Source: Acidobacterium sp.
GTDB lineage: Bacteria > Acidobacteriota > Terriglobia > Terriglobales > Acidobacteriaceae
NCBI GenBank assembly: GCA_003166955.1
Contig: PMUI01000080.1
Location: forward strand, 1 to 64,000
DNA: 64,000 nt
Direction: 5' to 3'
Position numbers and translations under genes: made by a program. The notes under the pieces are model-generated. The model worked only from the letters and a program-made list of their open reading frames with translations. It had not been told where the DNA came from and made no database searches. Of this stretch, positions 6,001 through 30,666 are shown piece by piece. Numbering within the stretch: position 1 is the first letter of the stretch; each line of letters begins with the position of its first letter.

Positions 6001-6148
6001 AAGCTCGAAGCAAATCGGGCTCGATGTTGCGATTCCCGAGCCGCTCCTCCCAGTTGCCAAGGTAGTCGTAATGAAGCCTGTTTTGAAACAGGGCCACGAT
6101 GCGATTCTGGGTTTTCCGCTCGCGCTGTCCAATGTCGTTCTTGATCAT
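3053..6148 (-). CDS. hsdR: Type I restriction endonuclease subunit R
   Basis: A protein of 1031 residues, the usual length for HsdR. It is the motor and nuclease subunit that, with HsdM and HsdS, translocates and cuts DNA lacking the host methylation pattern. The N-terminal nuclease has the PD-(D/E)xK core: D141 in RPDIVLY, then E155 and K157 in LELK. The superfamily 2 translocase follows, with Walker A THTQGSGKS (K285), a VFVDECHR box near 390 and a GFTGTP motif. The C-terminal helical region contacts the methylase core. The start overlaps the hsdS stop by four bases (ATGA), which supports translational coupling. All key residues are present, so it looks functional. Confidence 0.96.
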   Translation of the reverse strand: MIKNDIGQRERKTQNRIVALFQNRLHYDYLGNWEERLGNRNIEPDLLRAYLKDRGYADTIIDRALFLLQREAGDTSKSLYDRNRVVYDLLRYAVKVKPDVSENTKDVWLIDWKHPEKNHFAIAEEVTIAGSNDAAHTKRPDIVLYVNGIALGVLELKRSIVSVAEGIRQNLDNQKKIFIEHFFSTQQLVMAGNDTEGLRYATIQTPEKYYLTWKEPGDEKNLLDRSLLQLCEKKRFLEVIHDFIAFDSGTKKLCRHNQYFGVKASQEHVRRREGGIIWHTQGSGKSLTMVWLAKWIHENVKNSRILIITDRTELDEQIEGVFKGVKEEIKRTTSGADLIAKLNDAEPWLMCSLVHKFGGKDGDDSDPDVGAYVQELKKSLPPGFKAKGDIYVFVDECHRTQSGELHKAMKSILPNAMLIGFTGTPLLKTDKQKSIEVFGGFIHTYKFDEAVKDGVVLDLRYEARDIDQRITSQAKIDQWFEAKTKGLNDLAKAELKKRWGTMKKVLSCQDRLEKIVADVLMDMATRDRLKSGRGNALLVSGSIYQACKFYELFDKTDLRGKCAIVTSYKPVAAQIKGEESGEGLTERLRQFDIYRKMLAEWFNEKPETAVNKIELFEKEAKARFIKEPGQLKLLIVVDKLLTGFDAPPATYLYIDKQMRDHGLFQAICRVNRLDGDDKDYGYIIDYKDLFKSLEGAVKDYTSGAFDAYDKEDVAGLLEDRLGKGRQRLEDALETVRALCEPVEPPKDSAAHLRYFCAKESGNADQLKENEPKRLTLYKQVAELVRAFADIANELPEAGFTPAQIESMKAEVGQFEKAREEVKLASGDYIDLKMYEPAMRHLIDNYIRAEESEKIASFDNIPLVQLIVERGADALAALPAGIRNNKDAAAETIENNVRKLIIDEQPLNPKYYDKMSELLDALIAQRRKEALDYKKYLEQIIALAKKVVNPAFGESYPVGLDTPGKRALFDNLGKEAPLAFAVDLAVRKSRQDDWRNNPFKIKKVRFAIKDALKGDEDLTSKTLELVKNQNEY

Positions 6149-7386
6149 AGGAGCCTTGTTTTTCCTGTGAGAAGTTTTTGCATCAATCCTTGTTTAATTG
6201 AATTGACCTTGTTACACCTCTTTTCCAACCCGGCGATTTCCGCATCGATGTCTGAGAGTGTGCCAGCAATTGCAATTTGCTCAGGATGCGAAGGTATGCG
6301 AAATGGGAGCTTCAGTAGCGCAGTTTTGGAGAGATTGTATCGAATAGCGCCTTGCCCGAGTGACTTTAGCAGCTTCCTACCTTCTTGGCTCCTGAAATAG
6401 TATGCGAGATAGAGTCCGTCAGCTTGTGCTCGTTGATGAAGTCGAAAGCCAAAACAAAAGCTGTTTAGAAATACATCATGCACCTCATTGAGTAAAACCG
6501 CGCACATCCCCACTTCTTCGGCTGTTTCCGATGAACCGTTGAAGAAGATGTCGCCAACAGCGACTCGGTTCTGACTTTCCGTCGGTGCGATCTCTACCAA
6601 CTCTAGGGCGTTGCAGTCGATTACCACGTTCCCCATGATATTCATGAAGGTTATGTAACGACCACCACCATGACCAAAGTCCTCCTTGCTCTTCCCCGAG
6701 AGACCGCCGAAAGTTGCACCGAAGTCTCCTAGACACCTTACATCCCAGACTCCCCCAAAGCCAGGTAGGCGAATCTTTCCAGAAAGTAATTGATGTGTAA
6801 CGGCTTGTCTGACGTTGCGTTTCTTTTCGAGGACTTGATTTAGTGATTCGATGAGAGCGTCAGTGTCATTGAGTATTCCTGCAATAGCTTTCTGTTCTGG
6901 AAGTGCCGGAAGTGGAATCAAGGTCTCACTGAACTGTGTCTTGTTAATTAGCGGGACAGCTTGCTCTCCAGCGAGTCTTCTGATTGAAGGTGACAAAAGG
7001 CAGAGTGCATAATACAAAAAGTCCGTGTTATATGTAGGTGATGGCATAACAGCGTTTATCTGTTGGTTTGATGTGAGATCAACCGTTGCAACCCCACACT
7101 TGCCGATCGTCGAGCCAATGCAAGTAAACAAAATACTGGACTTGGGAAATCTCCTTGATATGCCAAAGCCGATAGAAGATAGCTTTTTGGCGGTATTCTT
7201 TATCCACTTTGCATCAGACAAGTCCACAGGGCTGACGAATAAGAACTCATCACCATAGAATTCACGATGCGCGGTTGAGGGGGTACTTCCAGTTGAAATC
7301 GAAGCAATCTCTCCGAGTTTCGCAACTCGCCAGTCTTTCGGAATGAGTCCGATCTCGGTTTGTTTGAATCCCTGCTTCATTTCCAT
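6145..7386 (-). CDS. hsdS: Type I restriction specificity subunit S
   Basis: A protein of 413 residues with two target-recognition domains. Each is followed by a conserved helical spacer: LPALPEQKAIAGIL with a following coiled region near residues 165-210, and PSHPEQIAIAGTLSD near the C-terminus. Each target domain reads one half of a bipartite DNA site and directs the methylase and nuclease. The first domain starts with the common GLIPKDWRVAKLGEI signature. It sits between hsdM and hsdR with overlaps of 10 and 4 bases. Both halves look complete, so no phase-variable truncation is visible. The recognition sequence cannot be read from the protein. Confidence 0.94.
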   Translation of the reverse strand: MEMKQGFKQTEIGLIPKDWRVAKLGEIASISTGSTPSTAHREFYGDEFLFVSPVDLSDAKWIKNTAKKLSSIGFGISRRFPKSSILFTCIGSTIGKCGVATVDLTSNQQINAVMPSPTYNTDFLYYALCLLSPSIRRLAGEQAVPLINKTQFSETLIPLPALPEQKAIAGILNDTDALIESLNQVLEKKRNVRQAVTHQLLSGKIRLPGFGGVWDVRCLGDFGATFGGLSGKSKEDFGHGGGRYITFMNIMGNVVIDCNALELVEIAPTESQNRVAVGDIFFNGSSETAEEVGMCAVLLNEVHDVFLNSFCFGFRLHQRAQADGLYLAYYFRSQEGRKLLKSLGQGAIRYNLSKTALLKLPFRIPSHPEQIAIAGTLSDIDAEIAGLEKRCNKVNSIKQGLMQKLLTGKTRLL

Positions 7387-9764
7387 GAGAACCCCATCTT
7401 CGTTAGGTGTGTGTTCACGCGGGTTGAGAGTTCGTTCGCGGCATTCGTGAGGTTTGGGAGTGGCGCATCGTAGCGCTCTGCGAGCTGCTTGATGCGTCCG
7501 GCAAGCGCCTGAGAGACACGATTCAACTCAGCATGGACGACAGAGGATAGAGTGGCTATCCACTTGTCGTCAACGACCAAGGCCTTGATCTCGTCTTTGT
7601 TCAGCTTCCCATACTGTGCTGCGACGTTTACATCCAAAGCCTTTACGGCAGCTTTCATTTTCTTGTTTGCTGCGGCCTCACTTTCAACTAGTTGAAGATA
7701 CTTCCTCAAAAGCTTCCTCTCGTCGCCTAAGTCGGGGTCACTTACGATTTCTTCGAGTCGCGCTTTCACGCTAGCTTTGCTAAGGTTACCTTTGTCGTTT
7801 TTCGCTTCAGCCAGCAGACCGTCCTCGCCACCATGCTCTTCATCGAGTTCCTCAATCTGGCGCAAAATCGCCTCGCGGTCAACCTCCATCTGGTTGATTG
7901 CCGCTTGATCTGCGGCAAAATATCGATTAACAATGAGGGTCGGGGGAATGAGATCGGTGCTTGGATGACCATCAATAACCGCCTTCCAACCCTCTTTGGC
8001 CAACAAATAGACGTCGTCCTGCATCGTCTCAGCCCAATAGTCCATTAGGTGCTGATACACGTCGTACGGATCAACAAGTCTCGCTTTTTGGAAGGTGGCC
8101 AGTAGGTCTTCGGAGAGTTCTTGAATGAGTAACTTGGGCTTAGCTCCAACCTTCATGTCCTTTAGAACCGGCGTCTGAATTGTTTTCCAGTTGGCGAATA
8201 GTCTTGTGACTGATTTGTGAAAAGAAGTGAATTCCGGGTGGTCAAAAATCGTTCCCTTGATTTCGGACTGCGGAACTGTGACGGTCGAGTATTCCTTCCG
8301 GTGATAGGGCGTGAATAACATCGTGCGCAAGGTTGGGAAGACTTTCCAATAACTCTCTAAATCTGCAATATCTCTGTTTGGAAGCCCGCCACGAAGATGG
8401 GCATCGATGTCTTGAATGTCTTCTGGTTCGCTGCTGTCAACGTAGCGCGGAAGATTCAGGTTGAAATCGTTCACTTCTATCTCGGCAACGGGTACCATGC
8501 GCGAATACTTCTGGAGTTCTGTCTGTTTATTGAATACATCGACGATTTTGTGTAGGTCCATTTCTCTAAGGCGGTTCTTGTTACCGTCCTTCAAGAACCC
8601 CTTGCTCGCATCAATCATGAAAATCCCTGTGCGAGCCCCCGCGTTTTCTTTGTCTAGAACAACAATGCAAGCCGGTATTCCGGTGCCGTAAAAGAGATTT
8701 CCTGGAAGTCCAATGATCCCCTTGATATACCCACGACGAATGATCTCTCTGCGGATATCTGCTTCAACATTGCCACGGAATAGCACTCCGTGAGGCATAA
8801 TGATGGCACCTTTGCCCTTGCTCTTCATTGAAGCCAGGAGTTGCAACAGGAAAGCGTAATCGCCATTCTTCTTTGGTGGAACCCCGAACGTAAAGCGTTT
8901 ATATGGATCGTCCCCGGTATTCACGCCGTTCATCCACGCCTTGTCGGAAAACGGCGGATTGGCGACCACAAAATCGAAAGTCTTGAGACCCCCCCTATCT
9001 GTGAAATGAGGACTGGAGAGAGTATTACCTTTCCATATATCGGCGGACGGGCAATCGTGGAGGAACATGTTCATCTTTGCGATTGCCCAGGTCGCGAGAT
9101 CGTTCTCCTGTCCATAAATTGCCAGATCAAGCCCCGCTCTATTTCTTGCCTCATCATGGGCCTTAAGTAAGAGCGATCCGGAGCCGCAGGTCGGGTCATA
9201 AATCGTTTGGGTTTCGCTTCTTGCCTCACCGATCCCGATGACCTTCGCCATAATGCGGGAAACCTCTGCGGGGGTATAAAACTGTCCCTTGCTCTTGCCG
9301 GACTCCGTAGCAAAGTGGCGCATAAGGTATTCATAGGCATCGCCAAGGAGATCGTCCCCTTCGGCACGATTCCCCTTGAAATTCAATTCTGGTTTGTCGA
9401 AGATGCCAACCAGGTTGGAGAGGCGGTCCACCATTTCTTTGCCGCTTCCCAACTTCGCCGGATCGTTGAAATCGGTCTGGTCGATGACGCCCTTGAGGCT
9501 GTTGGCCTCGGCGAGCTTGGCGATGATCTTATTGATCTTGTCCCCAATCTCTTTGTTGCCCTTGAGGGCGACCATGTCGGCGAAGCTCCCGCCCTTGGGG
9601 ACTTCGACCATGGCGTCTTTTTGCCCGGCGTATTTGTCGGAGACATACTTCACGAAGAGCAGGACCAGGACGTAGTCCTTGTACTGAGAGGCGTCCATGC
9701 CGCCGCGCAACTCGTCGCAGCTTTTCCAAAGCGAACTGTAAAGTTCAGATTTCTTGATAGCCAT
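7377..9764 (-). CDS. hsdM: Type I restriction modification methylase subunit M
   Basis: A protein of 795 residues, first gene of the restriction operon. It transfers a methyl group from S-adenosylmethionine to adenine N6 in the site chosen by HsdS. The HsdM N-terminal helical domain (about 5-140) is followed by the methylase core, with DPTCGSGS at 190-197 for AdoMet binding and the catalytic NPPF at 269-272. The protein is about 250-300 residues longer than E. coli HsdM. The extra C-terminal part (about 500-795) is helical, with a stretch rich in Glu and Lys near 640-720 that suggests coiled coil. The ATG at 9764 begins a MAIKKSELYSSLW start typical of the family. Confidence 0.95.
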   Translation of the reverse strand: MAIKKSELYSSLWKSCDELRGGMDASQYKDYVLVLLFVKYVSDKYAGQKDAMVEVPKGGSFADMVALKGNKEIGDKINKIIAKLAEANSLKGVIDQTDFNDPAKLGSGKEMVDRLSNLVGIFDKPELNFKGNRAEGDDLLGDAYEYLMRHFATESGKSKGQFYTPAEVSRIMAKVIGIGEARSETQTIYDPTCGSGSLLLKAHDEARNRAGLDLAIYGQENDLATWAIAKMNMFLHDCPSADIWKGNTLSSPHFTDRGGLKTFDFVVANPPFSDKAWMNGVNTGDDPYKRFTFGVPPKKNGDYAFLLQLLASMKSKGKGAIIMPHGVLFRGNVEADIRREIIRRGYIKGIIGLPGNLFYGTGIPACIVVLDKENAGARTGIFMIDASKGFLKDGNKNRLREMDLHKIVDVFNKQTELQKYSRMVPVAEIEVNDFNLNLPRYVDSSEPEDIQDIDAHLRGGLPNRDIADLESYWKVFPTLRTMLFTPYHRKEYSTVTVPQSEIKGTIFDHPEFTSFHKSVTRLFANWKTIQTPVLKDMKVGAKPKLLIQELSEDLLATFQKARLVDPYDVYQHLMDYWAETMQDDVYLLAKEGWKAVIDGHPSTDLIPPTLIVNRYFAADQAAINQMEVDREAILRQIEELDEEHGGEDGLLAEAKNDKGNLSKASVKARLEEIVSDPDLGDERKLLRKYLQLVESEAAANKKMKAAVKALDVNVAAQYGKLNKDEIKALVVDDKWIATLSSVVHAELNRVSQALAGRIKQLAERYDAPLPNLTNAANELSTRVNTHLTKMGFSWK

Positions 9765-12553: not shown

Positions 12554-12769
12554 CTATCTGAGCAGGAGAAGAATGCTGCGAAGCGTGGTGAATTCGGCCT
12601 CGATGCCCGCGAGGGCTCCGAGCGCGCCGAGATGATTCCCCGTGTGGAGGTCACCCTCGACGGTGCGCAGGCGCGCGATGAACTCGCGGGTGATTTCCTG
12701 AGCACGTTCGAGAATTCGCTTCCGGACGGCTTCCTCAACGTCGAGGATGTTGGGTTTGGTGTTTGTCAT
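12554..12769 (-). CDS. Small helical protein coupled to integrase
   Basis: A protein of 71 residues starting MTNTKPNILDVEEAV. Its ATG shares bases with the integrase stop (ATGA, 12766-12769), so it is almost certainly translated by coupling. A longer frame running upstream through the integrase gene is an artefact. The product is one or two amphipathic helices with no recognised family. It could be a regulator or accessory of the integrase, or unrelated cargo. Confidence 0.65.
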   Translation of the reverse strand: MTNTKPNILDVEEAVRKRILERAQEITREFIARLRTVEGDLHTGNHLGALGALAGIEAEFTTLRSILLLLR

Positions 12770-13848
12770 GCGGTTGATTCCTCCGTGGTTTCGGGTGACG
12801 TGGCTGGTTGTGGAGGCAATTTCTCCTCCTCCGCTGCCAGTTGGGTCTGAGCGGCAAGCCACACCTCGAGCTTGCGGATCGCTTCCCGTTTTTCGGGTAG
12901 CTCGATCTGCACGTAACGGTCGTTCACGTCGCGGGAGTGCCGTGAGGTGTGGCCGAGAATTTCGCGACGGACTTCCTGCAGGACGCCGGCAAGCATCATG
13001 CGGGTATTCGCCGTGTGGCGAAGATCGTGGAACCGGAAGTGGCGAATCCCCGCGCGGCGGAGACTTGCCGCCCACGCCGTTTTCACGATCTTGATGGGAA
13101 CGCCTTCGAACGTGAAGACGGTTCCTTTTTGCTTCCGAAAAAACAGTAGGAGTTCGTAGAGGCGCATCGTGAGCGGAATGTCCCGCGCCTCCCCTTCCGG
13201 TGTTTTCGAGTGGGTGACGTGGAGGATGCGATTGTCGAAGTCGATGTCCTCCCAACGTTCAGCGAGGATCTCGCCCCTCCGCATGCCAGTGTCGAGCGCG
13301 CAGCGAATGATCCGCTGGAGGTGGAGCGGCGATTTCGCGACGAGCAGTTCCTCTTCGCGAAAGCTCATGACGGGGCGCTTGGTTCTGCGTTCCCGTTCCA
13401 TCCGAAGTCTCCCCAAGGGATTCGCCGGGATGAGCCGCTCCTCGACCGCCCAATTGAGCACGCGGCGGAGGACCGAGAGATCGCGATTAACGGTTGCCGC
13501 CTTGAGCGTCTTCTTCTCTTCGTAGCGGCGCTGGCGATATTCACGGAGCGCGGCCGGGCCGATGTCCGCCACTCGCATCTCAGAGAAAAACGGCAAAAGG
13601 TGCGACAGGCGGTCCAGCGAGTACGGCGTGCTCATCCCGTTCGCGATGAATCGCGCCGAGAGCTCGCCGAAGGTCATGTCAGGGTTCGCGTGCGGTACTC
13701 GGCGCCGCACGTCGTTCAACTCCTCATGGAACTGTCGTTCGATCGTTTCCGCCTTGCGCCGATTCGACGTTCCGGTGGACTTGCAGTGGCGCACGCCATC
13801 GACATAGATCGATGACCACCACGTCGAATTGCGCTTGTAGAGCGACAC
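12766..13848 (-). CDS. Tyrosine site-specific integrase
   Basis: A protein of 360 residues using the GTG at 13848, which follows an AGGAGG site; longer frames upstream overlap the HTH gene and are unlikely. A beta-rich arm-type N-terminus (SLYKRNSTWW), a SAM-like core-binding domain (about 55-145) and a catalytic domain are visible. The catalytic set is complete: R190 in DTGMRRGE, K215, H274 and R277 in FHDLRH, H300 in LGH and the nucleophile Y312 in NDRYVQ. It should integrate and excise the element. The HTH protein directly upstream is the likely directionality factor. The intact tRNA-Pro gene with a displaced 3' copy elsewhere in the window is a plausible target, though the integrase lies far from it. 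Confidence 0.93.
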   Translation of the reverse strand: MSLYKRNSTWWSSIYVDGVRHCKSTGTSNRRKAETIERQFHEELNDVRRRVPHANPDMTFGELSARFIANGMSTPYSLDRLSHLLPFFSEMRVADIGPAALREYRQRRYEEKKTLKAATVNRDLSVLRRVLNWAVEERLIPANPLGRLRMERERRTKRPVMSFREEELLVAKSPLHLQRIIRCALDTGMRRGEILAERWEDIDFDNRILHVTHSKTPEGEARDIPLTMRLYELLLFFRKQKGTVFTFEGVPIKIVKTAWAASLRRAGIRHFRFHDLRHTANTRMMLAGVLQEVRREILGHTSRHSRDVNDRYVQIELPEKREAIRKLEVWLAAQTQLAAEEEKLPPQPATSPETTEESTA

Positions 13849-13853
13849 GGGCG

Positions 13854-14177
13854 TTACATTCCTCCTTTCTGTTGGCGTTGGAGAATCCACCGCACGACCT
13901 GCGCGCGATAGAAGATCAATTTGCCGAGCCGACCGGACCGCATATGCGGGAGACCCTTCGGCAGGTACGAGTGCCGCACGGTCCACGGCGAGCAGCCGAT
14001 GAGCCGCGCGACCTCGCGGATCGTGAGCGGGTCGCCGAGGGCGTCTACGGACTGCGGGTATTGCTGCGGGTAACGCTGCCCTCGGTCTTCGTGCGAAAAG
14101 CTCAATGAATCTAAGGGCTTCTCGCTCCCTTCGAAACCTGCCTTGCGTACCTCATCTGCATGGCGCTCATTCGTCAT
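13854..14177 (-). CDS. HTH / excisionase-like DNA-binding protein
   Basis: A protein of 107 residues starting MTNERHADE. The C-terminal half (about 50-105) is a MerR/excisionase-type winged helix: DPLTIREVARLIGCSPWTVR, followed by a wing with LGKLIFYRAQVVRWI. Such proteins read attachment-site DNA and steer the integrase toward excision, or act as repressors. It overlaps the zinc-ribbon gene by 11 bases and ends 5 bases before the integrase start, with the AGGAGG of the integrase inside its last codons. The first 45 residues are of low complexity. A purely regulatory role is also possible. Confidence 0.8.
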   Translation of the reverse strand: MTNERHADEVRKAGFEGSEKPLDSLSFSHEDRGQRYPQQYPQSVDALGDPLTIREVARLIGCSPWTVRHSYLPKGLPHMRSGRLGKLIFYRAQVVRWILQRQQKGGM

Positions 14178-16875: not shown

Positions 16876-17631
16876 TCAGAAGTTCGTGATGAGCACCTCG
16901 CGGAACCGGCGGCCGGCGGCCTTTTGGGCCGTGTACGGCATTTCGATCCCGCGTATCCGGAATGCGCTGAAGAGTTCCCGCACCTCGGGCACGTCGTTCA
17001 GGGACAGCACGAACGACCCCTTCACCCTACCCAGCCGCTCCGCGAGCACGCGGAAATCGTCCGGAGCAAAGTTGAATTTGTAATGGCGGACGCCGTAATA
17101 CGGCGGGTCCGCGAAGAAACACGTCTCCGCGCTGTCGTATTTCGCGAACACCCTCTCGTACGACAGGCATTCGAGCACGACACGCGCGAGGCGGCGATGC
17201 GTCTCTTCGATGAGTTCGGGGAGACGCTCGGGATTGAGTCCCGGAGGCTGGACGATTCCGGTGCGGAAATTCTGCTTGGTCACCCGGCCCGCGTAGCTCG
17301 TTTTCTGGAGGTACAGGAGTCGCGCCGCGCGTTCGACATCCGTGAGCGTCAGGACATCGGTCGCCTTGAGGAGGTCGTAATACCTGCGGCTCACGATGGT
17401 GAAGCGCAGGTAGCGGACGAGCTCCTCGTAATGGCGCTGGGCGACGCGGTAGAAGTTCACGATCTCGTAATCGAGGTCGTTCAGCACTTCAACTTTCGAC
17501 GGGGGCTTCGCGAAAAATACCTGTCCGCCGCCGACGAAGGGTTCGACGTAGGTCGTATGCCGTGGCAGCATCGCAATTATTTGTTTGGCGACGGCGCGCT
17601 TTCCGCCGATGTACGCGAGTGGGCCTCGCAT
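16876..17631 (-). CDS. DNA adenine methylase, D12 class
   Basis: A protein of 251 residues. YIGGKR at 7-12 and VEPFVGGG near 29-36 bind AdoMet, and the catalytic motif DPPYYG is at 175-180. This order matches Dam/DpnM-type N6-adenine methyltransferases. With no endonuclease next to it, it is probably an orphan methylase that marks the element or protects it from restriction. Its upstream region carries a 9-bp hairpin, an AAAGGTCG box and a divided inverted repeat that it shares with the XRE unit, so it is likely to be under the element's own regulator. It is transcribed away from the small CxxC protein. Confidence 0.92.
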   Translation of the reverse strand: MRGPLAYIGGKRAVAKQIIAMLPRHTTYVEPFVGGGQVFFAKPPSKVEVLNDLDYEIVNFYRVAQRHYEELVRYLRFTIVSRRYYDLLKATDVLTLTDVERAARLLYLQKTSYAGRVTKQNFRTGIVQPPGLNPERLPELIEETHRRLARVVLECLSYERVFAKYDSAETCFFADPPYYGVRHYKFNFAPDDFRVLAERLGRVKGSFVLSLNDVPEVRELFSAFRIRGIEMPYTAQKAAGRRFREVLITNF

Positions 17632-17721: not shown

Positions 17722-17803
17722 ATTCATAGGGGTAGAAAATTGCGCGCGATGCTTCATTGCAGCGTGGAGCGAACGACCTGCGCAACTTTCTATCCCTATG
17801 AAT
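17722..17803. promoter_or_regulatory. Divided inverted repeat, likely operator
   Basis: ATTCATAGGGGTAGAAAAT (17722-17740) faces its near-perfect reverse complement at 17785-17803 (17 of 19 bases), 44 bases apart. The pair lies between the divergent methylase and CxxC genes. The same 16-base core TCATAGGGGTAGAAAA recurs at 20710-20725 before the XRE regulator, which makes it a good candidate for that regulator's binding site. Confidence 0.6.
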
Positions 17804-18079: not shown

Positions 18080-19642
18080 ATGAACGCAGTCATCTATTGC
18101 AGGGTATCTTCCAAGGAACAAGTCGAGGGCACGAGTCTTGAGTCGCAGGAAATTGCGTGCCGCGAGTACGCAGAGCGCAACCGGCTCGACATCGCGCAGG
18201 TGTTTGTCGATAGGGGGGAATCCGCGAAATTCGCTGATCGGCCGCAGCTCCTTGAACTCCTCGCGTTCTGCAAGGATCGGGAGCGGGCGGTAGACCAGTT
18301 GCTCGTGTGGAAGGTGGACCGCCTTGCCCGCAACGTGGGTGATCACTTCAACATAAAGGCGGCGCTCATGAAGTACGGCGTCCGCGTCGTGTCGGTCACG
18401 GAGCCCATCGACGCGAAACCGGAGGGACGACTCCTCGAGACGATCCTCGCGGGGTTCGCGCAATTCGACAACGATGTGCGCGCGGCCCGCACCGTGCAGG
18501 GAATGCGCCGAAAACTTCAGGACGGAATCTATCCGTGGCAGCCGCCGTTGGGATACAAGGGCACCGCCGTGCCCGGAAGCAAAAAGCAGAAACCCGACGT
18601 TCCGGATGAACCCGCCTTCGGGATTCTGCAGGAAGCTTGGATGAGTTTCGCATCAGGCTCGTACACCAAGGCGCAAATACTGCGCTTTCTCACGGGACGA
18701 AAACTCACCACCCGTTCCGGCAGGGCACTCACGAACCAGTTCGTCGATTATCTTTTCGACGACCCGTTTTACGCTGGCATTTTGCGCGATCCGTGGAGCG
18801 ACGACGAACTTCCCGGGAAGCACCTGCCAATGGTGAGCCGGGAGACCTTCGATACGGTGCGGAGCATCATCGCGGGAAGGAACCGGTCGATGCCGCATCA
18901 GACGACGCGCCCCGAGTTCCCCCTGAGAACCTTTGTGCGCTGCGCAAGCTGCGAGCATACCCTCACGGGCTCGTTCTCCCGAGGAAGGTCCAAAACATAC
19001 GCGTATTACCACTGCCATAACCGGCAATGCGACAATCCCGGAAACTATCCCCTCGGCGAAGTGCATGCAGAATTCGCTCGGTTTCTCGCGGACGTTAACC
19101 CGACACCCCACGCGATTGCGCACCTGAAGCGCTGTCTGCGGAAGATCAATGAGCTCGCCGCGGCACAGGTTGACCATCTCCGCCGCACGCGGGAAGCGGA
19201 CGTGCAACGCGCGCGGGAACAGATGAAAGAACTCATCCGGATGAAAGTGGATCGCCTGATCTCGGACGAGGAATTCCAGCGGGAGCGGAAGGTGATCGAG
19301 GGGCGGTCAACGCCGTCGGAACTCCATGACTCGAGGCTCGACGCGGAGCGCGCGGATTCTGTACTCGGCGACCTCGACGCCGTGACGCGGCACCTTACCA
19401 ATCTGCCTGAGACATGGACACAGGTGACGCCTCAATTTCAGCGACGGTTCCAACAAGTGATGATTCCGGCCGGATATTCCGTCGGGAGTGTTGGAACCGC
19501 TTCCAAGGGGCGCCTTCTCTCATTTCTTGGCTCACCTCTGCCCGTAGATACATATTTGGTGCCCCCGGCATGGGAAAGTTGGAACCAATTGGCAAATGAG
19601 GTACAGACCCTCGCGCAAATCTTCCGAGGTTCGGGCATGTGA
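18080..19642 (+). CDS. Large serine recombinase
   Basis: A protein of 520 residues. The N-terminal resolvase domain has YCRVSSKEQ with the nucleophile S10, and VWKVDRLARN with the conserved DR. A recombinase domain follows (about 150-270, PLGYKG), then a zinc-ribbon domain with CASC and CHNRQC near 285-320, a long charged coiled coil (about 345-420) and a C-terminal tail. This is the layout of large serine integrases that join attP and attB without host factors. It is the second integrase class in this stretch besides the tyrosine enzyme, so two elements may be nested or fused. The gene ends just before a 75-base hairpin. Confidence 0.93.
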   Translation: MNAVIYCRVSSKEQVEGTSLESQEIACREYAERNRLDIAQVFVDRGESAKFADRPQLLELLAFCKDRERAVDQLLVWKVDRLARNVGDHFNIKAALMKYGVRVVSVTEPIDAKPEGRLLETILAGFAQFDNDVRAARTVQGMRRKLQDGIYPWQPPLGYKGTAVPGSKKQKPDVPDEPAFGILQEAWMSFASGSYTKAQILRFLTGRKLTTRSGRALTNQFVDYLFDDPFYAGILRDPWSDDELPGKHLPMVSRETFDTVRSIIAGRNRSMPHQTTRPEFPLRTFVRCASCEHTLTGSFSRGRSKTYAYYHCHNRQCDNPGNYPLGEVHAEFARFLADVNPTPHAIAHLKRCLRKINELAAAQVDHLRRTREADVQRAREQMKELIRMKVDRLISDEEFQRERKVIEGRSTPSELHDSRLDAERADSVLGDLDAVTRHLTNLPETWTQVTPQFQRRFQQVMIPAGYSVGSVGTASKGRLLSFLGSPLPVDTYLVPPAWESWNQLANEVQTLAQIFRGSGM

Positions 19643-19747: not shown

Positions 19748-20278
19748 TCAATCGGGAATCGAGGATTTACACTCAGCGTTGCCGAGTTCGGTTGTGTAAT
19801 ATGCAACACTGCCTGCAAGAGCATCAAAAATCGCCATCCTTGGGTCTTCCTTTGTCCAGATCTTTCGCTCCGGAGGTAGTTTCCAAGCTAGTTCGGGGAA
19901 TGCTTTGGCAAGTGCTCCGGCGATTTCCCATTTTGATCTCGCATTGTATGAGGCAAATGCTGCGTGTATGGCGTTCCGGCGTAGACGAATGATCCGAATC
20001 GAGCGAGATGCCGCAGCGGATCGAAGCGATCTTGTGATGAATCTTATGGCCGTAATTTTCTCGTTGGCGCTGTGGCTTGGCAAAACAATTACAACGAACG
20101 AGGGGTTTATCCGCGCCAAGAGACCGTCCAGTCGCTTCTTCGCGGATTTCAGCTCGTTTGACCGCTTCCGCTGATAGAAGATCGTCCCCCAATCGAGGAG
20201 ATGGCCCTGCGCATCCAGTGCCGCAAACCCAAGCCAGCGCGCTCGGATAGCGAGTCCGAGCAATCTGACATCACGCAT
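19748..20278 (-). CDS. RNase H-fold protein, RuvC-like
   Basis: A protein of 176 residues. It starts RLLGLAIRARWLGFAALDAQG, which resembles the first beta hairpin of RuvC/YqgF-type RNase H folds, a middle FVVIVLPSH strand, and a late FDALAGSVAYY helix like the last acidic helix of that fold. The first catalytic Asp expected after LLGL is alanine, so nuclease activity is doubtful. It overlaps the XRE regulator gene by 8 bases and is co-transcribed with it. Such a pair could be a repressor plus Holliday-junction-type partner on a mobile element. The fold assignment is by pattern only. Confidence 0.5.
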   Translation of the reverse strand: MRDVRLLGLAIRARWLGFAALDAQGHLLDWGTIFYQRKRSNELKSAKKRLDGLLARINPSFVVIVLPSHSANEKITAIRFITRSLRSAAASRSIRIIRLRRNAIHAAFASYNARSKWEIAGALAKAFPELAWKLPPERKIWTKEDPRMAIFDALAGSVAYYTTELGNAECKSSIPD

Positions 20279-20645
20279 GTTCAGGAAAATCGAACAAAGA
20301 GCTCTGGTCCTCGTTAGCCCGCTCCCATGCCCATTCCAATTTGCGTGCGATCATCGCCCCTATCCGCCCTCGTGCGGTGCTCCGATAACATTCATCGAAC
20401 AGGATGGATAAATGCTCTTCCACCTGTTTCTGCTCCTCTTCGAAGAGTGCAGGGAATAGCTTCCTGATGGGCACCTGGTACAGGGCCTCGTAGCGGAGCG
20501 CAGCGCGCAGGGACGGCACGGAGGTCAGCCGCTCGTGGCGTGAGATTTCTCCACTATGCAGATACCCGAGAATGCGAGCGATTTCCTTGAGACTCATGCC
20601 GGAGCGCTTGCGATGGGAGCGAAGATAGCTCGATGAATGCGTCAT
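20271..20645 (-). CDS. XRE-family regulator
   Basis: A protein of 124 residues with an N-terminal XRE helix-turn-helix (about 5-60: LRSHRKRSGMSLKEIARILGY, then ISRHER) and a helical C-terminal half likely used for dimerisation. This is the phage-repressor type of regulator. It is the first gene of a two-gene minus-strand operon with the RNase-H-like protein. Upstream at 20709-20727 is a copy of the element seen between the methylase and CxxC genes, and at 20674-20685 a 12-base match to the serine recombinase leader. Autoregulation and control of those units is inferred. Confidence 0.85.
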   Translation of the reverse strand: MTHSSSYLRSHRKRSGMSLKEIARILGYLHSGEISRHERLTSVPSLRAALRYEALYQVPIRKLFPALFEEEQKQVEEHLSILFDECYRSTARGRIGAMIARKLEWAWERANEDQSSLFDFPEHA

Positions 20646-20673: not shown

Positions 20674-20755
20674 CGACCTTTCCTTAACTCTAACGAATGG
20701 CTGAGTGACTCATAGGGGTAGAAAAGTGTGTTGGATGCACACTTTCATCAGCTCA
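20674..20755. promoter_or_regulatory. XRE upstream region with shared motifs
   Basis: On the minus strand 20685-20674 reads AAGGAAAGGTCG, identical to 18043-18054 before the serine recombinase. CTCATAGGGGTAGAAAAGT at 20709-20727 repeats the 17.7-kb operator arm. It is followed by ACTTTCATC at 20741-20749, a partial opposite arm, and by the AAGTGTG/CACACTT hairpin at 20724-20744. The arrangement suggests an autoregulatory operator. Confidence 0.5.
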
Positions 20756-20859: not shown

Positions 20860-21027
20860 CTAATCCTCATACACGAGCAGGTAACTCAAGAGAGGGGCGG
20901 GATTCAGAGCGAGGACTACGACAACCGCAAGGATCGCAATAATCGCGTTGACAACCAAAAGCTCAATCAGGGTGAAGCCTGAGGAATGTGATTCAGCAGC
21001 GATACCCGGAGAGCGGCCCGCTTTCAT
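20860..21027 (-). CDS. Type IV prepilin-like fragment
   Basis: A 55-residue frame with an ATG at 21027. Residues 17-40 read GFTLIELLVVNAIIAILAVV, the prepilin peptidase site (cleavage after G17), the Glu at +5, and the hydrophobic helix of type IV pilins and pseudopilins. After ALNPAPLLSY the frame ends, so the globular pilin domain is missing. The N-terminal part resembles short pilin starts of the kind LNPAELL. It may be a truncated relic carried on the island, or an intact mini-pilin. An asparagine interrupts the hydrophobic helix at residue 27, which is unusual. Confidence 0.6.
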   Translation of the reverse strand: MKAGRSPGIAAESHSSGFTLIELLVVNAIIAILAVVVVLALNPAPLLSYLLVYED

Positions 21028-21118: not shown

Positions 21119-21724
21119 ATGAAGAAAACAACCATGGCTGGGAATGCCGCCGTTCGTAAACGGCAGCGGTTTGCGAAAAGGGCAGAACGTCTGAGGACGG
21201 AGATCGACGACCTCGAGGAGGCGCTGTTTAGCGTCAACGAGAAAGATCCGGAGCTTCGCTGCAGTTATCTGGAAACGTTTCGCACGGAGATCATGCGGAG
21301 CTTCGTGTTGAGTCTCCATCTCGCCATAGAGGACCTTCTCCGCGCGATCCTCTTCGACTTTGTCGCGCGGCAAAACCGAAGGCTGACCAAGAAGGAGACT
21401 ATCCGGATCGTCAATGATTTGCGCTCAGCCGACCTGATCCATTGGTGCGGGCGACTGAATCTTCTGTCGCCGCGTCACTATGACGCTTTGCTGGAGCTCA
21501 ATCGGATCAGGAATCGCTGCGCCCACCATTGGCTTCTCGATCTCCCCTCTTCGAAGCGCGTCGGCCCGAAAGGCAAGCGAAAACGGATCACGGTTCCCGC
21601 CGTGTCGTATCAGAACAAAAGTCTCTTCGCGAAGCGAACATTCGTCGATGACTTCAGCCCCGTCTATTCGGGTCTGTATCTGAAACTGTTGTTCCGGGTT
21701 TGGAAGATGCAGGGAAAACTGTAA
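21119..21724 (+). CDS. HEPN-domain protein, putative RNase
   Basis: A soluble, helical, basic protein of 201 residues. RNRCAHHW at 131-138 within LNRIRNRCAHHWLL fits the Rx4-6H motif (R131, H136) of HEPN nucleases, and the preceding helices (about 45-115) would form the HEPN bundle. HEPN proteins usually act as metal-independent RNases in toxin-antitoxin and abortive-infection systems, often as dimers with both R and H at the interface. The gene is 6 bases ahead of the next gene on the same strand, so the two are almost surely one unit. The restriction system, methylase and recombinases around it fit a defence cargo. The start at 21119 has no clear ribosome site; ATG 21134 is an alternative. 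Confidence 0.7.
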   Translation: MKKTTMAGNAAVRKRQRFAKRAERLRTEIDDLEEALFSVNEKDPELRCSYLETFRTEIMRSFVLSLHLAIEDLLRAILFDFVARQNRRLTKKETIRIVNDLRSADLIHWCGRLNLLSPRHYDALLELNRIRNRCAHHWLLDLPSSKRVGPKGKRKRITVPAVSYQNKSLFAKRTFVDDFSPVYSGLYLKLLFRVWKMQGKL

Positions 21725-21730
21725 AAAGCC

Positions 21731-22561
21731 ATGATTGACGACCCATCCGAGCAGTTCAAGAAGCAGCTGGAGGAAGCCCTTGCCAAAGGCAGTGGCCCCA
21801 AGGCGGCCCGATTCGCGCTCGCGTGCCTCAGCGGGGCGATCCCGGGTTTCGGCGGCGCCATCGCCGGCGTCACGGCCACATGGTCTGAAAAGGAACAGGC
21901 GGAGTACAACCGGATTTTCGGCGCGTGGCTGAAGCTTCAAGAGGACGAGATTCGCGAGATCGGCATCACGATTTTCGAGATCATGGCCCGCCTTGACCAG
22001 AACGACGAGGAGATCAGAAAGCGCATCGAGAGTCCCGAATACCTGCAGTTGGTCAAGAAATGCTTCCGGGACTGGTCGGCGGCGGAGAGCGAAGAGAAGC
22101 GCCGCCTCATCAGAAACCTTTTGAGCAATGCTGCTGCGACGCGGATATGTTCGGACGACGTGGTGAAGATGTTCATCACGTGGATCGACATGTACTCCGA
22201 AACTCACTTCGCCGTGATCCGGGAAGTGTACAAGAATCCCGGCAATACCCGACAGGAAATCTGGGCGGCAATTCACGGCGCGAGCGTGAGGGAAGACTCT
22301 GCGGAAGCTGATCTATTCAAACTGCTGATTCACGACCTCAGTACGGGGCACGTCATCAGGCAGCACCGCGATGTTGACTACTATGGCAATTTCGTGAAGA
22401 CCCCTCAGCGGAAACGCCCCGGCACGGCAAGCAGGCTCATGGCGTCAGCGTTTGATGATGATAAGGAGTATGAGTTGACCGAGCTGGGGAAGCAGTTTGT
22501 CCATTACACGATGAACGAGATCGTCCCCAAGATCGGCGGCGGAAAAGAGGCTGATTCATAA
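21731..22561 (+). CDS. Glycine-rich-helix protein paired with HEPN
   Basis: A protein of 276 residues, family not recognised. Residues 28-50 (FALACLSGAIPGFGGAIAGVTA) form a small-residue, glycine-zipper-like hydrophobic stretch that could insert into or lie on a membrane. The following helical region (about 52-135) is strongly charged. A winged-helix-like part (about 155-240) with EIYKNPG-type and SAEADLFKLLIHDLSTGHVIRQ sequence comes next and could sense or bind nucleic acid. It starts 6 bases after the HEPN gene. It may be the sensor, the antitoxin, or a membrane effector of a two-gene defence module. The function is inferred from context only. Confidence 0.6.
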   Translation: MIDDPSEQFKKQLEEALAKGSGPKAARFALACLSGAIPGFGGAIAGVTATWSEKEQAEYNRIFGAWLKLQEDEIREIGITIFEIMARLDQNDEEIRKRIESPEYLQLVKKCFRDWSAAESEEKRRLIRNLLSNAAATRICSDDVVKMFITWIDMYSETHFAVIREVYKNPGNTRQEIWAAIHGASVREDSAEADLFKLLIHDLSTGHVIRQHRDVDYYGNFVKTPQRKRPGTASRLMASAFDDDKEYELTELGKQFVHYTMNEIVPKIGGGKEADS

Positions 22562-25329: not shown

Positions 25330-25845
25330 ATCGTCTGGATCATCCGTTCACAGCTTCTTTGCAATAATCCACCCAGCTGGGACCCCGTGAAGGCGGCGAC
25401 TATCGAAGCCCCTTGAGAACGATGACCGCTACAAAATCGACGACACCTGTGTAGCGGCAAAAAGCAGATGCATGGCCGGGATCGGCTGCATCTCTCGAAT
25501 GATCAATGGCTTGGAATGGTCGGGGCGGAGGGATTCGAACCCCCGACCCTCTGCTCTGGACCCCTCCCGATTCGGAAAGGTTATTACGAACTAAGGCCGA
25601 GCCGAAGCTGCGGAAAGTCGGGTGTCAATGGTAACTTACGAAAGTGTCGCTATTCCAGTTACCACGCATAGATACATCTGAGCGGCACCTTATCAAGATT
25701 CTTTTGACATTCACCGAGGCTGGCGGTACCCTGCGGCTCACAATCAACTGTGAGGTTGTCTCTCTCGTCTCATCAGGTCTGCTTTAGGGTAAGGGCAGTG
25801 ATGGTAGGTCTCACCGCTTCTTGCACCACCGCAAGGAGGCAAGCG
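25330..25845. other. Gene-free stretch around the attachment copy
   Basis: About 515 bases without a supported gene. It holds the partial tRNA-Pro copy and, after it, a TA-rich run that leads to the RHS gene. A 67-residue frame through the repeat, beginning with the familiar GAEGFEPPT sequence, is an antisense translation of tRNA and not a protein. Confidence 0.6.
25424..25556. repeat. Displaced 3' half of tRNA-Pro (attachment-site copy)
   Basis: Bases 25511-25556 are identical to 31431-31476, the 3' half of the intact tRNA-Pro from the anticodon stem to the CCA end plus its downstream flank. A further 85-90 bases upstream match the flank of the intact tRNA imperfectly (around three quarters by eye). 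After CTGCTC the two diverge. This is the footprint left when an element integrates at a tRNA gene. Confidence 0.8.
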
Positions 25846-28800
25846 ATGGCTCGACGCATCCTCTCGTGCTTTGCAATCGTCTTTCTGTTCGCCACCATTT
25901 CCGCCCATTCACAAGATTACTATTGGACAAACAGTTGGGGCGGCACCGGTACGGATATCGGCAATGGCGTCGCGACCGATTCCTCGGGAAATGTGTACGT
26001 AGCGGGATCAACGACGAGCTTTGGCGCGGGCGGGCAGGACGTACTGCTGCTCAAGTATGGCCCGTCGGGAAGCCTATTATGGGCGAGAACGTGGGGTGGA
26101 GGGAGCAACGACTTCGCCAACGCGGTTCTGGTTGGTTCTGACGGCAGCATCTACGTCGCTGGCGCGACAGAAAGCTGGGATGCGGGCTGGTATGACATTC
26201 TTGTGCTCAAATTCGACACCAATGGCAATATCGTGTGGGCACGGACATGGGGAGGGTCGAGTTTCGATGTCGGATACGACCTTTCGTTTGACCAGAGCGG
26301 TAATTTGGTGATTGCAGCGGAATCATACAGCTTCGGCAATGCCGTCGTGCTCCTGAAGATATCCCAAAGCGGGACGGTGCTCTCCGCCACTACATGGAAG
26401 GGACCCGCCACGTACGACTCCGGCTATTCGATCACCGTCGACACGAACGGAAACATAATCATCACTGGTACGAGTTGGGATTACAGCGTCTATCCCAATC
26501 ACAATACGATCCTGGTGCTGAAATTCGATAGTTCCGGAAGATTCCTTTGGAATAGAAATTGGGCGGGGCCGAGCGAAGATGAGGCATTCGGCAGAAAGGC
26601 TGTACGTACCGACGCTTCGGGAAACATTTATATCGCGGGGCACACATCGCCGTCATGCAGTACAAGCGACTTCACGCAATGCAAATTCAATACCCTTCTT
26701 CTGAAGATCGATCCCAACGGCAATTTCCTCTGGGCGCGTCAATGGGAAGGAAGCGGTTCGGAAACTCCGGGCGGCCTTTGGCTTGATTCGAACGGGCATC
26801 TCTACGTCGCGGCGACTACGACAAGCTTCAACGGCGGATTGCAGTCTGCATTCGTTCAGGAGTATGACGGAAACGGCAATGTTCTATTGAGTGAGTGGAA
26901 TTTGGGGAACGGCGCATCGGGGTACAACAGCTTCACTAAAGCCAGCTCAGATATGTTGGTTGCGACCGGTTTTGGCCCGAATGTCTTTGTCGATTGGCAA
27001 ATTGCCGCGGATAGCGAAGCGTCCGTTTCCGGTAGCCTCACTACACCGGCCAGTGCGGTGAACACCGTTACGGGCACGGTCGGAACAATCTTACTTTCGT
27101 CAACGAACCAAACGGGCGTGTCGGCAACGGGTGGCGGGGGGGCTGACGTGTTGACCGGGAAATACCTCTTCGAAGGCGCCACGGTGATTCCGCAACCAGC
27201 TCCTCCCGTTGCCGGAAGTGGGGCTCCTTCGAATAACTCCACGTCGGGATATTCTCAGGAACCGATCAATACCGGAAACGGAAACTATTTTTATCAACAC
27301 GCTGATTTTGCCATTCCCGGCCGGGGAATCCCGCTCACTTTTGAGCGGTCTTACAACTCTATCGACAACTTCGCAGGGCCGTTGGGAGCAAACTGGAATC
27401 ATGCATACGACGTCTTGCTGGGCCAGACGGCGGCGGGAGTGGCGACCATCCGCTGGGGCGACGGGCATGGCGAAGCATATACCTTGACGAGCGGGGTCTA
27501 CGTTCCGCAAGCCGGCGTGTACAACACGCTGGTTGCCAACGCAGACCAGACGTTCACCTTGACGCTGAAGAACCAAACCCAATACCTCTTCTCGCCTGTT
27601 GGCAAACTCACTGCCATTCAAGACAAGAATGGAAACGTGGCAGAGCTCGCCTACGATGGCAACGGAAATCTCGTCACCGTTACCGCTTCGGGAGGGCGCA
27701 GTCTGGCTCTGGCCTACGACGGTCAGGGAAGGATCGTAAGCGTCACCGATCCGATCGGCCGCACAGAGAAATATGTGTATGACGCAGCGAACGATCTACT
27801 GAGCACAACCGACCCGATTGGCGGGGTCACGACCTACGGCTATGACGCCAACCACCACGTGACGCAGATCACGCTGCCCAACGGGAACACGCTGCTCAAG
27901 AATGCGTACGACATCCAAGGGCGAGTGATATCTCAAACGAATGGCCGGGGATACACGTGGAAATTCGCGTACAACACGCCGAATTCCGGGCAAACAACCA
28001 TCACCGACGCGCGCGGTGGGGTAACCGTCCATACGTACGACAGTTCTCTGCGCATCGTGGGCATCCTTGACGCACTCGGCAACACGACGACGTACACGTA
28101 CGACGCGGACAACAATCGCGCGAGCGTCACGAACCAGAACGGGAAGACGACCGCATTCGCCTACGATGCGAATGGCAACGTCACAAGTGCGACCGATCCG
28201 GTGTCGAACAAGACGGCCTTCACCTATGACGCGAACAACGATCTCCTGACGGTGACGAACCCGAAGGGCAAGACGACCAGCTTCTCTTACGATTCGCACG
28301 GCAACCTTACCAGCATTCAGGATGCCCTCAACGATAAGACCGCGTTGGCCTACGATTCTCTTGGCGAACTGACCGGCAGAACCAATGCACTGGGAAACAC
28401 AGCAACCTTCAGCTACAGCGCAACCGGCGACCTAACCGGCATCAAGGACGCGCTGGGCAATTCGACAATACTGGCCTACGATGGCGATGGGCGGCTCACC
28501 TCAGTCACCGATCCGAACCTGCATACGGCGACTTCCGCATATGACGCGCTCGGACGCCTGACCACGGTCTCCGACCCTCTAGGCAACCAAACCAAGTTTG
28601 CTTATGACGGCGTCGGCAATCTGTTATCGGTCACTGACGCGAACGGGCATAAAACAGCGTACACGTATGATGCGGTGAACAATTTGGTCACCGTGACCGA
28701 CGCTCTTGGACACGTGACGAAATACTCGTACGACGCGGACAATAATCGTGTCGGATTCACAAATGCAAAAAGCAACGCATCCACGTACCAGTTCGACGCG

Positions 28801-30666
28801 CTCAATCGGCTCATCAAGACCATCGATCCACTCTCCTTTGCGACGGCATATAACTACGACCCCGTGGGGAATGTGATCGCCTTTACCGATGCCAAGGGAC
28901 AAACGAACCGCTTCGCGTATGACGCGCTGAATCGGCTTCTTTCCATCGCCTACGCCGACGACCAGAGTGTGGCGTACAGCTACGATGCCGACGGCAACCG
29001 CACCAGCATGGCTGATTGGACGGGAACCACGGCATACACGTACGACGATCTGGACCGGCTGGTTTCCGTGGCCTTTCCGGGGAACAAGAGCGTGTCGTAT
29101 ACCTACGACCCGAACGGTCGTAGAGCTTCGCTCACGTATCCCGACGGCAGAGCGGTGGGGTACGGTTATGACGCCGACGAACGGCTTTCAACGGTGTCCG
29201 ACTGGCTTTCGCACGCCACGCACTACACGTACGATCCGGCAGGCAATCTCACGTCGGCCCGGTACCCCAACAAAGCCGGAATCACTTTCGCCTATGACGC
29301 CGCGAACCGGCTGATCAGCGTTGCGAACGCCGTCGTTGGCCCAGGCCTCACCTTCAACTACACCCTCGACCCGGTCGGGAACCGCACGAAGGTAACGGAG
29401 GCCGGGATCCCCACGCTGTACGGATACGATGCCCTCAACGAACTGACGAGCGCCCAGACCGGAATACTGAGAATGTCTTGGACCTACGATGCTGTGGGCA
29501 ACCGCCTCACCGAAACGCTGCCCCTCGGCGCCATCAAGTACAGCTACGATGCCTCGGATCGGATGCTCACGGCGGGCACGCAGACGTACACCTACGATGC
29601 CGACGGCAATGAGACCTCAGTGGCGGACTCTTGGACGCGTTTGAAACGGACCTACACGTTCAATGCCGCGAACCGTCTCGTCTCCGTGGCTGGTGCTGGG
29701 CTAACCAGTTCATTTGTATATGACGGAGACGGTAACCGGGTGAGCCAGTCTGCTGGAGGCGTGACGCAGACCTACATCAACGACATTGGCGTCGCCCTGC
29801 CAGTAGTGCTCCAAGACGCCTACAATGTCGGTGCTCCCAGCAGCTATGTCTACGGCCAGAATCTGATCGAATCCCTGCAAGGCCGCGACGACGATTTCTA
29901 CCAATACGACGGCCTCGGCAGCGTGATTCAGTTGACGGACGCAGCCGGGAGACCGGAATGGTCGTACCTCTACGATCCCTGGGGAAACTCGATCCTTCCC
30001 GCACCGCCTATGAATCCGTTCATGTTTGCTGGACAGGCGCTCGATCCAGGAACGGGCCTCTATTACCTGCGCGCCCGTTATTACGACCCGATGGTCGGCC
30101 GGTTCTTGGCGCGAGACCGAGCTCCCGCGATTCTGACGTTGCCAACAAGCGCGAATCGCTATGCCTACTCATTGAACAGCCCCACGCGTTTCACCGATCC
30201 GACGGGTCTCCTCACGTTCGCGGTCGGCGTGTCTGGTACGGCAGCGGTCCTGAGCGGACTTGAGGCAAATATGTTGCTTGTGTTTGATGACAAAGGGAAT
30301 CGTGCTTTGGAACTCGACGTTGGGCCGCCGGTTGGAATTGAGGCCAGTATCGGAGCCGCTGTCATTCTGACCAATGACAGCACCATTTTTCAAACCGAAG
30401 GCCGGAGTTTTTCAGTGGGCGGCAGTGTCGAGGCCGGGGCATTGGGGGCGGGGTATAGCCTGCTTTTCTCGGGTGGCAACTACAACGGGGTCTCCGCGAA
30501 CATCGGGGTCGGCGCGGGTGCATCGGTCGCATCGTTCACGACGGGCTCGCTCTTGCTTGTGAATTCTCCCCTGCTCGACCTCTTTCCGAGCCAGCCATTC
30601 TTGTCGTGGTCGGAGGTGCAGAACTTGATAGATGCCGCGAACCCGAGCATCTCTAGTGCAAAATGA
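25846..30666 (+). CDS. Secreted RHS/YD-repeat protein
   Basis: A protein of 1606 residues. The ATG at 25846 has AAGGAGG six bases upstream and begins a signal peptide (MARRILSCFAIVFLFATISA), so longer frames are rejected. Residues about 25-385 are SBBP-type propeller repeats (WGG...D..GNVYVAGST). A DUF6531-like segment follows near 470-505 (IPGRGIPLTFERSYNS), then some 25 YD repeats (about 585-1350) and the RHS core near 1374-1428 (GLYYLRARYYDPMVGRF). The last 165 residues are glycine- and serine-rich alternating strands, unlike the usual toxin tips. RHS shells enclose C-terminal toxins or present surface ligands. The gene lies between the two tRNA-Pro copies, which points to horizontal gain. 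A convergent membrane protein overlaps its end. Confidence 0.9.
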   Translation: MARRILSCFAIVFLFATISAHSQDYYWTNSWGGTGTDIGNGVATDSSGNVYVAGSTTSFGAGGQDVLLLKYGPSGSLLWARTWGGGSNDFANAVLVGSDGSIYVAGATESWDAGWYDILVLKFDTNGNIVWARTWGGSSFDVGYDLSFDQSGNLVIAAESYSFGNAVVLLKISQSGTVLSATTWKGPATYDSGYSITVDTNGNIIITGTSWDYSVYPNHNTILVLKFDSSGRFLWNRNWAGPSEDEAFGRKAVRTDASGNIYIAGHTSPSCSTSDFTQCKFNTLLLKIDPNGNFLWARQWEGSGSETPGGLWLDSNGHLYVAATTTSFNGGLQSAFVQEYDGNGNVLLSEWNLGNGASGYNSFTKASSDMLVATGFGPNVFVDWQIAADSEASVSGSLTTPASAVNTVTGTVGTILLSSTNQTGVSATGGGGADVLTGKYLFEGATVIPQPAPPVAGSGAPSNNSTSGYSQEPINTGNGNYFYQHADFAIPGRGIPLTFERSYNSIDNFAGPLGANWNHAYDVLLGQTAAGVATIRWGDGHGEAYTLTSGVYVPQAGVYNTLVANADQTFTLTLKNQTQYLFSPVGKLTAIQDKNGNVAELAYDGNGNLVTVTASGGRSLALAYDGQGRIVSVTDPIGRTEKYVYDAANDLLSTTDPIGGVTTYGYDANHHVTQITLPNGNTLLKNAYDIQGRVISQTNGRGYTWKFAYNTPNSGQTTITDARGGVTVHTYDSSLRIVGILDALGNTTTYTYDADNNRASVTNQNGKTTAFAYDANGNVTSATDPVSNKTAFTYDANNDLLTVTNPKGKTTSFSYDSHGNLTSIQDALNDKTALAYDSLGELTGRTNALGNTATFSYSATGDLTGIKDALGNSTILAYDGDGRLTSVTDPNLHTATSAYDALGRLTTVSDPLGNQTKFAYDGVGNLLSVTDANGHKTAYTYDAVNNLVTVTDALGHVTKYSYDADNNRVGFTNAKSNASTYQFDALNRLIKTIDPLSFATAYNYDPVGNVIAFTDAKGQTNRFAYDALNRLLSIAYADDQSVAYSYDADGNRTSMADWTGTTAYTYDDLDRLVSVAFPGNKSVSYTYDPNGRRASLTYPDGRAVGYGYDADERLSTVSDWLSHATHYTYDPAGNLTSARYPNKAGITFAYDAANRLISVANAVVGPGLTFNYTLDPVGNRTKVTEAGIPTLYGYDALNELTSAQTGILRMSWTYDAVGNRLTETLPLGAIKYSYDASDRMLTAGTQTYTYDADGNETSVADSWTRLKRTYTFNAANRLVSVAGAGLTSSFVYDGDGNRVSQSAGGVTQTYINDIGVALPVVLQDAYNVGAPSSYVYGQNLIESLQGRDDDFYQYDGLGSVIQLTDAAGRPEWSYLYDPWGNSILPAPPMNPFMFAGQALDPGTGLYYLRARYYDPMVGRFLARDRAPAILTLPTSANRYAYSLNSPTRFTDPTGLLTFAVGVSGTAAVLSGLEANMLLVFDDKGNRALELDVGPPVGIEASIGAAVILTNDSTIFQTEGRSFSVGGSVEAGALGAGYSLLFSGGNYNGVSANIGVGAGASVASFTTGSLLLVNSPLLDLFPSQPFLSWSEVQNLIDAANPSISSAK

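Follow-up and report, generated by a model that had tools for sequence, protein, structure and literature searches.

HEPN ribonucleases are recognized by the signature R-x4-6-H, in which the residue after the arginine is polar (N, D or H), as set out in the accessible part of PMC3710099. The members of this class that come closest to one of the two genes described here are the HepT-like (PF01934), DUF4145 (PF13643) and Abi_2 (PF07751) proteins and HepS. Abi-alpha (DUF4393, PF14337) of Enterococcus faecalis prophage 6, a protein of 272 aa, is a one-gene system that leads to premature lysis of infected cells, and in the accessible part of the report its authors only speculated on holin or membrane effects (PMC6356687). 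P4-like satellites also carry anti-phage genes, for which a hotspot between psu and int is described in the accessible part of PMC9122126. Additionally, the PADLOC library contains PDC-S54, a candidate single-gene defence for which our literature search found nothing and which proved to be a recurrent neighbour of the second gene considered below.

The window analyzed here is the whole stretch of 64,000 nucleotides in which two adjacent genes, A and B, had been read as a two-gene defence or toxin-antitoxin cassette. In our reading, to which we give a probability of about 0.5, A and B are two independently evolving, probably anti-phage genes that reside in a mobile island, and not a co-evolved cassette.

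The gene pair and its island

Inspection of the sequence confirmed both open reading frames, their coordinates (Table 1) and the spacing of 6 bases that separates the stop of A from the start of B on the same strand; given this gap, the two genes may be co-transcribed in the window genome. The restriction-rich mobile setting proposed for them was also found, since type I restriction-modification genes, a D12 methylase and two recombinases could all be located. Neither of the two window proteins reached a Pfam cut-off or matched any NCBIfam or PADLOC model, and B belongs to a widespread family without a name.

Other features of the island were observed around the pair. The sequence CATAGGGGTAGAAA occurs three times (one copy with 1 mismatch) at sites that flank the serine recombinase and an overlapping gene pair; a search of the full 64 kb that allowed up to 2 mismatches found no further copy, and 0 of 100 shuffles gave three. 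These copies are possible recombination or operator sites. The overlapping pair encodes an HTH regulator with a weak match to PADLOC RmrA (1.7e-4) and a protein of 176 aa, for which the match is Tex/YqgF-like and likewise weak (0.15). Just upstream of A, a 55-residue ORF reads GFTLIELLVVNAIIAILAVVV and then stops; we take this sequence to be type IV pilin N-terminus-like, and the ORF reads like a pilin remnant or a very short pseudopilin. A large RHS-repeat protein (1638 aa) with beta-propeller repeats is encoded about 3 kb downstream of B.

Table 1. Coordinates of genes, protein segments and other features in the window
Feature	Coordinates	Strand	Basis
Type I restriction-modification genes	3053-9764		
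Tyrosine integrase	12766-13986		
D12 methylase	16876-17631		
CATAGGGGTAGAAA, three copies	17725-17738; 17787-17800; 20711-20724	+; -; +	
Serine recombinase	18080-19642		
Overlapping pair, HTH regulator and 176 aa protein	19748-20645	-	
55-residue ORF, pilin-like start	20863-21027	-	
Gene A, predicted HEPN-type protein, 201 aa	21119..21724	+	ORF and seven-member family
R-x4-H motif RNRCAH, A residues 131-136, predicted RNase active site	21509..21526	+	Sequence, family invariance and motif rule in the accessible part of PMC3710099
Gene B, glycine-zipper/helical/winged-helix protein, 276 aa	21731..22561	+	63 distinct copies, alignment and model
B glycine-zipper-like hydrophobic stretch, residues 28-50, family consensus LAALGSIPWVGG	21812..21880	+	Alignment and hydropathy
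B helical middle, residues 53-136, with NLLSNAA stretch aligning with Abi_alpha-type proteins	21887..22138	+	Model and profile comparison
B C-terminal winged helix, residues 140-262	22148..22516	+	Predicted structure and fold comparison
RHS-repeat protein	25750-30666	+	

Gene A as a putative HEPN ribonuclease

The family alignment of A comprises the window protein and six full-length relatives (n = 7), one of which is 68% identical to the window protein and five of which are 19-32% identical. Residues E28, L51, E52, R60, L74, N128, R131, N132, H136 and F175 are invariant in all seven members. The proposal that RNRCAH represents a HEPN motif is upheld by this alignment, as R131, N132 and H136 are kept in 7/7 members and correspond to the Rx4-6H motif with a polar residue after the arginine. 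The upstream acidic residue of HEPN proteins has candidates in E28 and E52 (7/7), neither of which shows the typical Ex3[KR] spacing in the window. Since these two glutamates and R131, N132 and H136 persist down to the most distant member at 19% identity, it is very probable that A represents a HEPN RNase; the observed basis for this prediction is the conserved R-N-x3-H together with the upstream acidic residues.

A is like the described HEPN RNases in its R-N-x3-H, in a conserved Asn before the motif and in the invariant upstream Glu, but it lies below the cut-off of every HEPN model and forms a separate family with, so far, seven full-length members, the window included. Below the Pfam cut-offs, its relative L011 matched DUF4145 at 0.012 and HepT-like at 0.06, and the window protein matched Abi_2 at 1.9. 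With hhalign, the A profile gave an E of 0.0082 against a DUF4145 set and 0.06 against a HepT set, and its best PDB match, which spans the motif at a non-significant E of 0.19, was HepS (9oij), presumably a HEPN protein itself; a literature search on HepS returned nothing relevant. A further difference from these RNases is that A has no MNT partner beside it in the window.

At E <= 0.001, A was detected in 7 of 300 genomes of the window's family (own included, two of the 7 only in part), and a single-protein query of wider samples found it in 2/297 phylum genomes and 1/200 class genomes; tblastn against plasmids and phages gave none. The closest relative (G480), from the same family as the window, is 70% identical over 187 aa and is located between two opposite-strand ORFs on a contig of 5.7 kb. 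In G007, of the same genus as the window, a relative with 31-32% identity is followed by an AIPR gene. A 16-residue match in L002 was dropped because no ORF of at least 60 aa spans it on its strand.

Architecture, spread and possible kinship of gene B

The alignment of B consists of the window copy and 51 other loci, duplicates and partial copies having been excluded (L001, L004-L009, L047, L057, L059, L060, L064-L066 and L070); its 52 sequences share 26 invariant residues, and the start codon of B fits the closest full-length relative. Residues 28-50 (FALACLSGAIPGFGGAIAGVTAT) are hydrophobic, with a best 19-residue Kyte-Doolittle mean of 1.62, and across the family the mean at this stretch ranges from 0.99 to 2.19 and is at least 1.6 in 36 of the 52 members. 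The glycine-zipper-like hydrophobic stretch of the original prediction is supported, and by its hydropathy it would be a borderline membrane helix. A structure prediction from the 52-row alignment (mean pLDDT 79.3, pTM 0.74) replaced a poor model built from 5 sequences (pLDDT 61, pTM 0.37). In the winged helix, the 10-residue pLDDT means are 88-97, with a dip to 74 and 67 across the loop at residues 221-240, and in VIA comparisons residues 120-272 superpose on winged-helix proteins, mostly MarR-type (the best match is a MarR protein with Z 10.1 over 84 residues, rmsd 4.5). The winged-helix-like character suggested for the second half of B is therefore borne out by both predicted structure and fold comparison; as the fold is common, and is shared with the MarR-type transcription factors, the match indicates a winged helix and not a function. 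A typical DNA-reading helix is not net acidic. The turn and predicted recognition helix of B (residues 186-206), by comparison, carry a net charge of -1 to -3 in 52/52 members, with 0 to +6 for the wing; on this crude charge measure, taken without a MarR control, the acidic recognition helix may argue against ordinary DNA reading. Foldseek of the model against PDB and BFVD gave no match at E <= 0.001, and a PDB profile match to TenA (E 0.0004, under the usual threshold) was judged to be due to chance; it covers only the helical residues 29-113.

Including the window, B is represented by 63 distinct copies, of which 56 cover at least 200 of the 278 model positions; the fragments L066 and L159, above the E threshold of 1e-5, are left out of this number, and copies that are near-identical but not contained in one another (e.g., L067/L068) are counted apart. 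The genome-contig scan yielded 54 loci and the viral scan, with an alignment as query, 4, which together with the loci from genome searches reduce to the 63 distinct copies; a single-sequence query of viral contigs found none, as did tblastn against plasmids or phages. B occurs in 7/100 relatives and 14/339 family genomes (own included), where several copies are fragments or contain stops. The labels in the B tree belong to ten phyla. The closest full-length relative, 69% identical over 271 aa, comes from a contig binned as Parcubacteria, a label that is uncertain because metagenome bins may hold foreign contigs; the window copy groups with it and with copies from Pseudoalteromonas and Fusobacteriaceae (support 100/100), apart from nine rows labelled Acidobacteriota. 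A putative fusion in G841 (638 aa open frame) was rejected: by eye, the frame overlaps an ffh-like gene and B makes up its end only. A PADLOC scan over the 52 members matched 11 families with one member each (best E 0.0036). In titles and abstract openings, the literature on the combination of HEPN, Abi, winged helix and glycine zipper held nothing linked to B.

The relation of B to Abi-alpha was examined at several levels. The Pfam model Abi_alpha matches residues 88-169 of the window protein at 15.5 bits, below the cut-off of 29 (E 0.018), and in a scan of the family 2/52 members match it at E <= 0.1 (best 0.00076). Taken alone this match carries little weight, because unrelated-looking models score on a par (HNH_repeat 0.00058, DHH_CID 0.0009); in the same scan the winged-helix model F-93_WHD matches 5 members. 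A search for Abi_alpha-type proteins in 396 genomes of the phylum gave a match in 10, of which 8 exceeded the cut-off. The sets built from them cover 7 of the 9 places that exceeded it and 3 of the 4 that did not, with L080, L091 and L095 omitted. In hhalign, where each E-value is that of a single comparison, B matched the seven members over the cut-off at 0.0033, the ten-member set with the three below-cut-off proteins added at 3e-5, L097 and L094 together at 9.8e-6, L097 alone at 3.3e-5 and L094 alone at 0.016, whereas the controls (five column shuffles and reversed B against the ten- and two-member sets) gave 0.16 or worse. The better values depend on the below-cut-off members, mainly L097, in which a SIPWVGG-like stretch and the NLLSNAA helix are aligned with B. 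L097 and L094 themselves match the Abi_alpha core at E 0.054 and 0.0034, and the chain of kinship is for that reason suggestive. The L097 protein (1375-2109, minus strand; Abi_alpha match 6.2e-5, below the cut-off) has a B-like VPFIGS stretch and may bridge B and Abi_alpha.

B and Abi-alpha are similar in size (276 and 272 aa), both are found as single genes and their LL-NAA helix regions align. On the other hand, the consensus SIPWVGG and REDS-EADL motifs are B's own and B stays below the Pfam cut-off. Among described systems B appears closest in action to Abi-alpha, with modest and indirect support for kinship, and an Abi-like single-gene action, unproven and somewhat short of an even chance, would be the likeliest mechanism.

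Partners, neighbours and competing readings

A adjoins B in 1/63 distinct B loci, that of the window; in 48 of the 63 the sequence extends for 1 kb or more to either side of B. B was not found near any of the six full-length relatives of A, where the sequence covered runs for 1.9 kb or more downstream in all six and, on the upstream side, for anything between 0.4 kb (G007) and several kb; this includes the whole contig of the closest relative (G480). Conversely, no A was found beside the closest full-length relative of B. The window's genome is the only one listed as both A-positive and B-positive, in samples (300 and 339 genomes) that may differ in composition. The histories of the two genes also differ, as A has its nearest kin in the window's own family while B branches away from the Acidobacteriota rows. 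Of the original prediction, the HEPN RNase, the glycine zipper with winged helix and the mobile setting are supported; the defined two-gene system is not, because homologues of the two genes occur mostly apart, and a conserved A+B cassette is very unlikely. A tempting two-gene system without support is replaced by a testable one-gene family, B.

The 6-base gap and common strand might also be explained by a true two-gene defence system that came together only recently in the window's lineage; A would then be the RNase effector and B its sensor or adaptor, a part open to exchange. A comparable arrangement is found in a Desulfosporosinus bin (L056), where a co-directional DUF4145 gene of the HEPN class lies 194 bp upstream of B (3533-4192, E 1.5e-37), and in the viral contig L070 (4050-4709), with the same B; the two make one distinct locus and are the only B loci with a DUF4145 gene, none having a HepT-like gene. 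A few other neighbours of B look nuclease-like and fit the same idea, namely an HNH-like protein in L025 (E 0.0062, below the cut-off) and, as judged by eye, the PDC-S54 C-terminal half present at L058 and L036. Such a system remains unlikely, however, since no second A-B pair exists among the 62 other B copies and the 70% relative of A persists on a contig without B. The separate occurrence of each gene also makes it highly improbable that A is the toxin and B the winged-helix antitoxin and autorepressor of a type II toxin-antitoxin system; gene order, short gap and MarR-like winged helix would suit this explanation, but the net acidic residues 186-206, on the crude charge measure given above, may speak against it. 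In L013, a 308 aa downstream gene was considered as HEPN for its RDMTHH string and rejected for want of a Pfam HEPN-family match.

A different partner is suggested by PDC-S54, which matched 9 of the 150 B-neighbour proteins scanned (186 listed; best E 3.3e-129); the next 24 PADLOC families listed (of 272) match 2 proteins each, and no enrichment is claimed from these counts because they have no background set. In 7 loci its N-domain is no more than about 1 kb away from B, and L013 adds a weak further match (8/63 B loci). In five of the seven (L003, L032, L043, L057 and L061) the N-terminal half stands alone (185-226 aa), as against 0/4 complete copies elsewhere; the comparison was chosen after the pattern had been seen and omits the partial copy L145 (Fisher one-sided 0.045, two-sided 0.061). 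The C-terminal half is presumably nuclease-like, as read by eye from its GKTDI...AECK pattern, though the full-length L058 protein had no Pfam match. As the N-terminal half is often alone beside B and is usually joined to the half read as a nuclease, B might replace the latter and act in trans as effector. This we also consider improbable, given the small numbers, the variable orientation of the domain relative to B, its absence from the window genome and its distribution among 100 relatives, where only 1 of the 6 domain-bearing genomes also has B. A broader proposal of equally low probability is that B is a phylum-crossing plug-in immunity module with interchangeable partners, which would be HEPN-type genes in the window and Desulfosporosinus and the stand-alone PDC-S54 half elsewhere; if so, its glycine-zipper membrane part or its winged-helix sensor would serve several otherwise unrelated defence proteins. 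Finally, the winged helix and the neighbours, which vary and are in many cases ordinary genes, could point to an accessory regulator or mobile-element gene unrelated to defence; the patchy cross-phylum spread, the finding that several genomes carry B in fragments or in broken form and the repeated proximity of the defence candidate PDC-S54 render this unlikely.

The preferred reading, two independently evolving genes, has against it the same gap and common direction, which suggest co-expression in the window genome; A and B would then share the island and perhaps a transcript, and each is found without the other elsewhere. In this reading A would be a HEPN-fold, metal-independent RNase that cuts RNA when infection triggers it, and B a stand-alone abortive-infection-type protein whose winged-helix half may sense or bind a partner or ligand and whose N-terminal glycine-zipper helices may act on the membrane, which was among the options considered by the Abi-alpha authors. 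For B, the observed basis is its architecture, its patchy multi-phylum spread, satellite-like loci and the nearby defence candidates. If B protects alone, a widespread abortive-infection family missed by the 2023 PADLOC library would be added. As for the satellite-like loci, a megablast of L067 DNA found no E. coli genome carrying it; in L041, L067 and L068, a primase-helicase gene directly precedes B among the called ORFs. We take this gene to be of the P4 alpha type, and in L067, the one scanned, it has Pfam zinc-ribbon, Toprim and D5-type domains.
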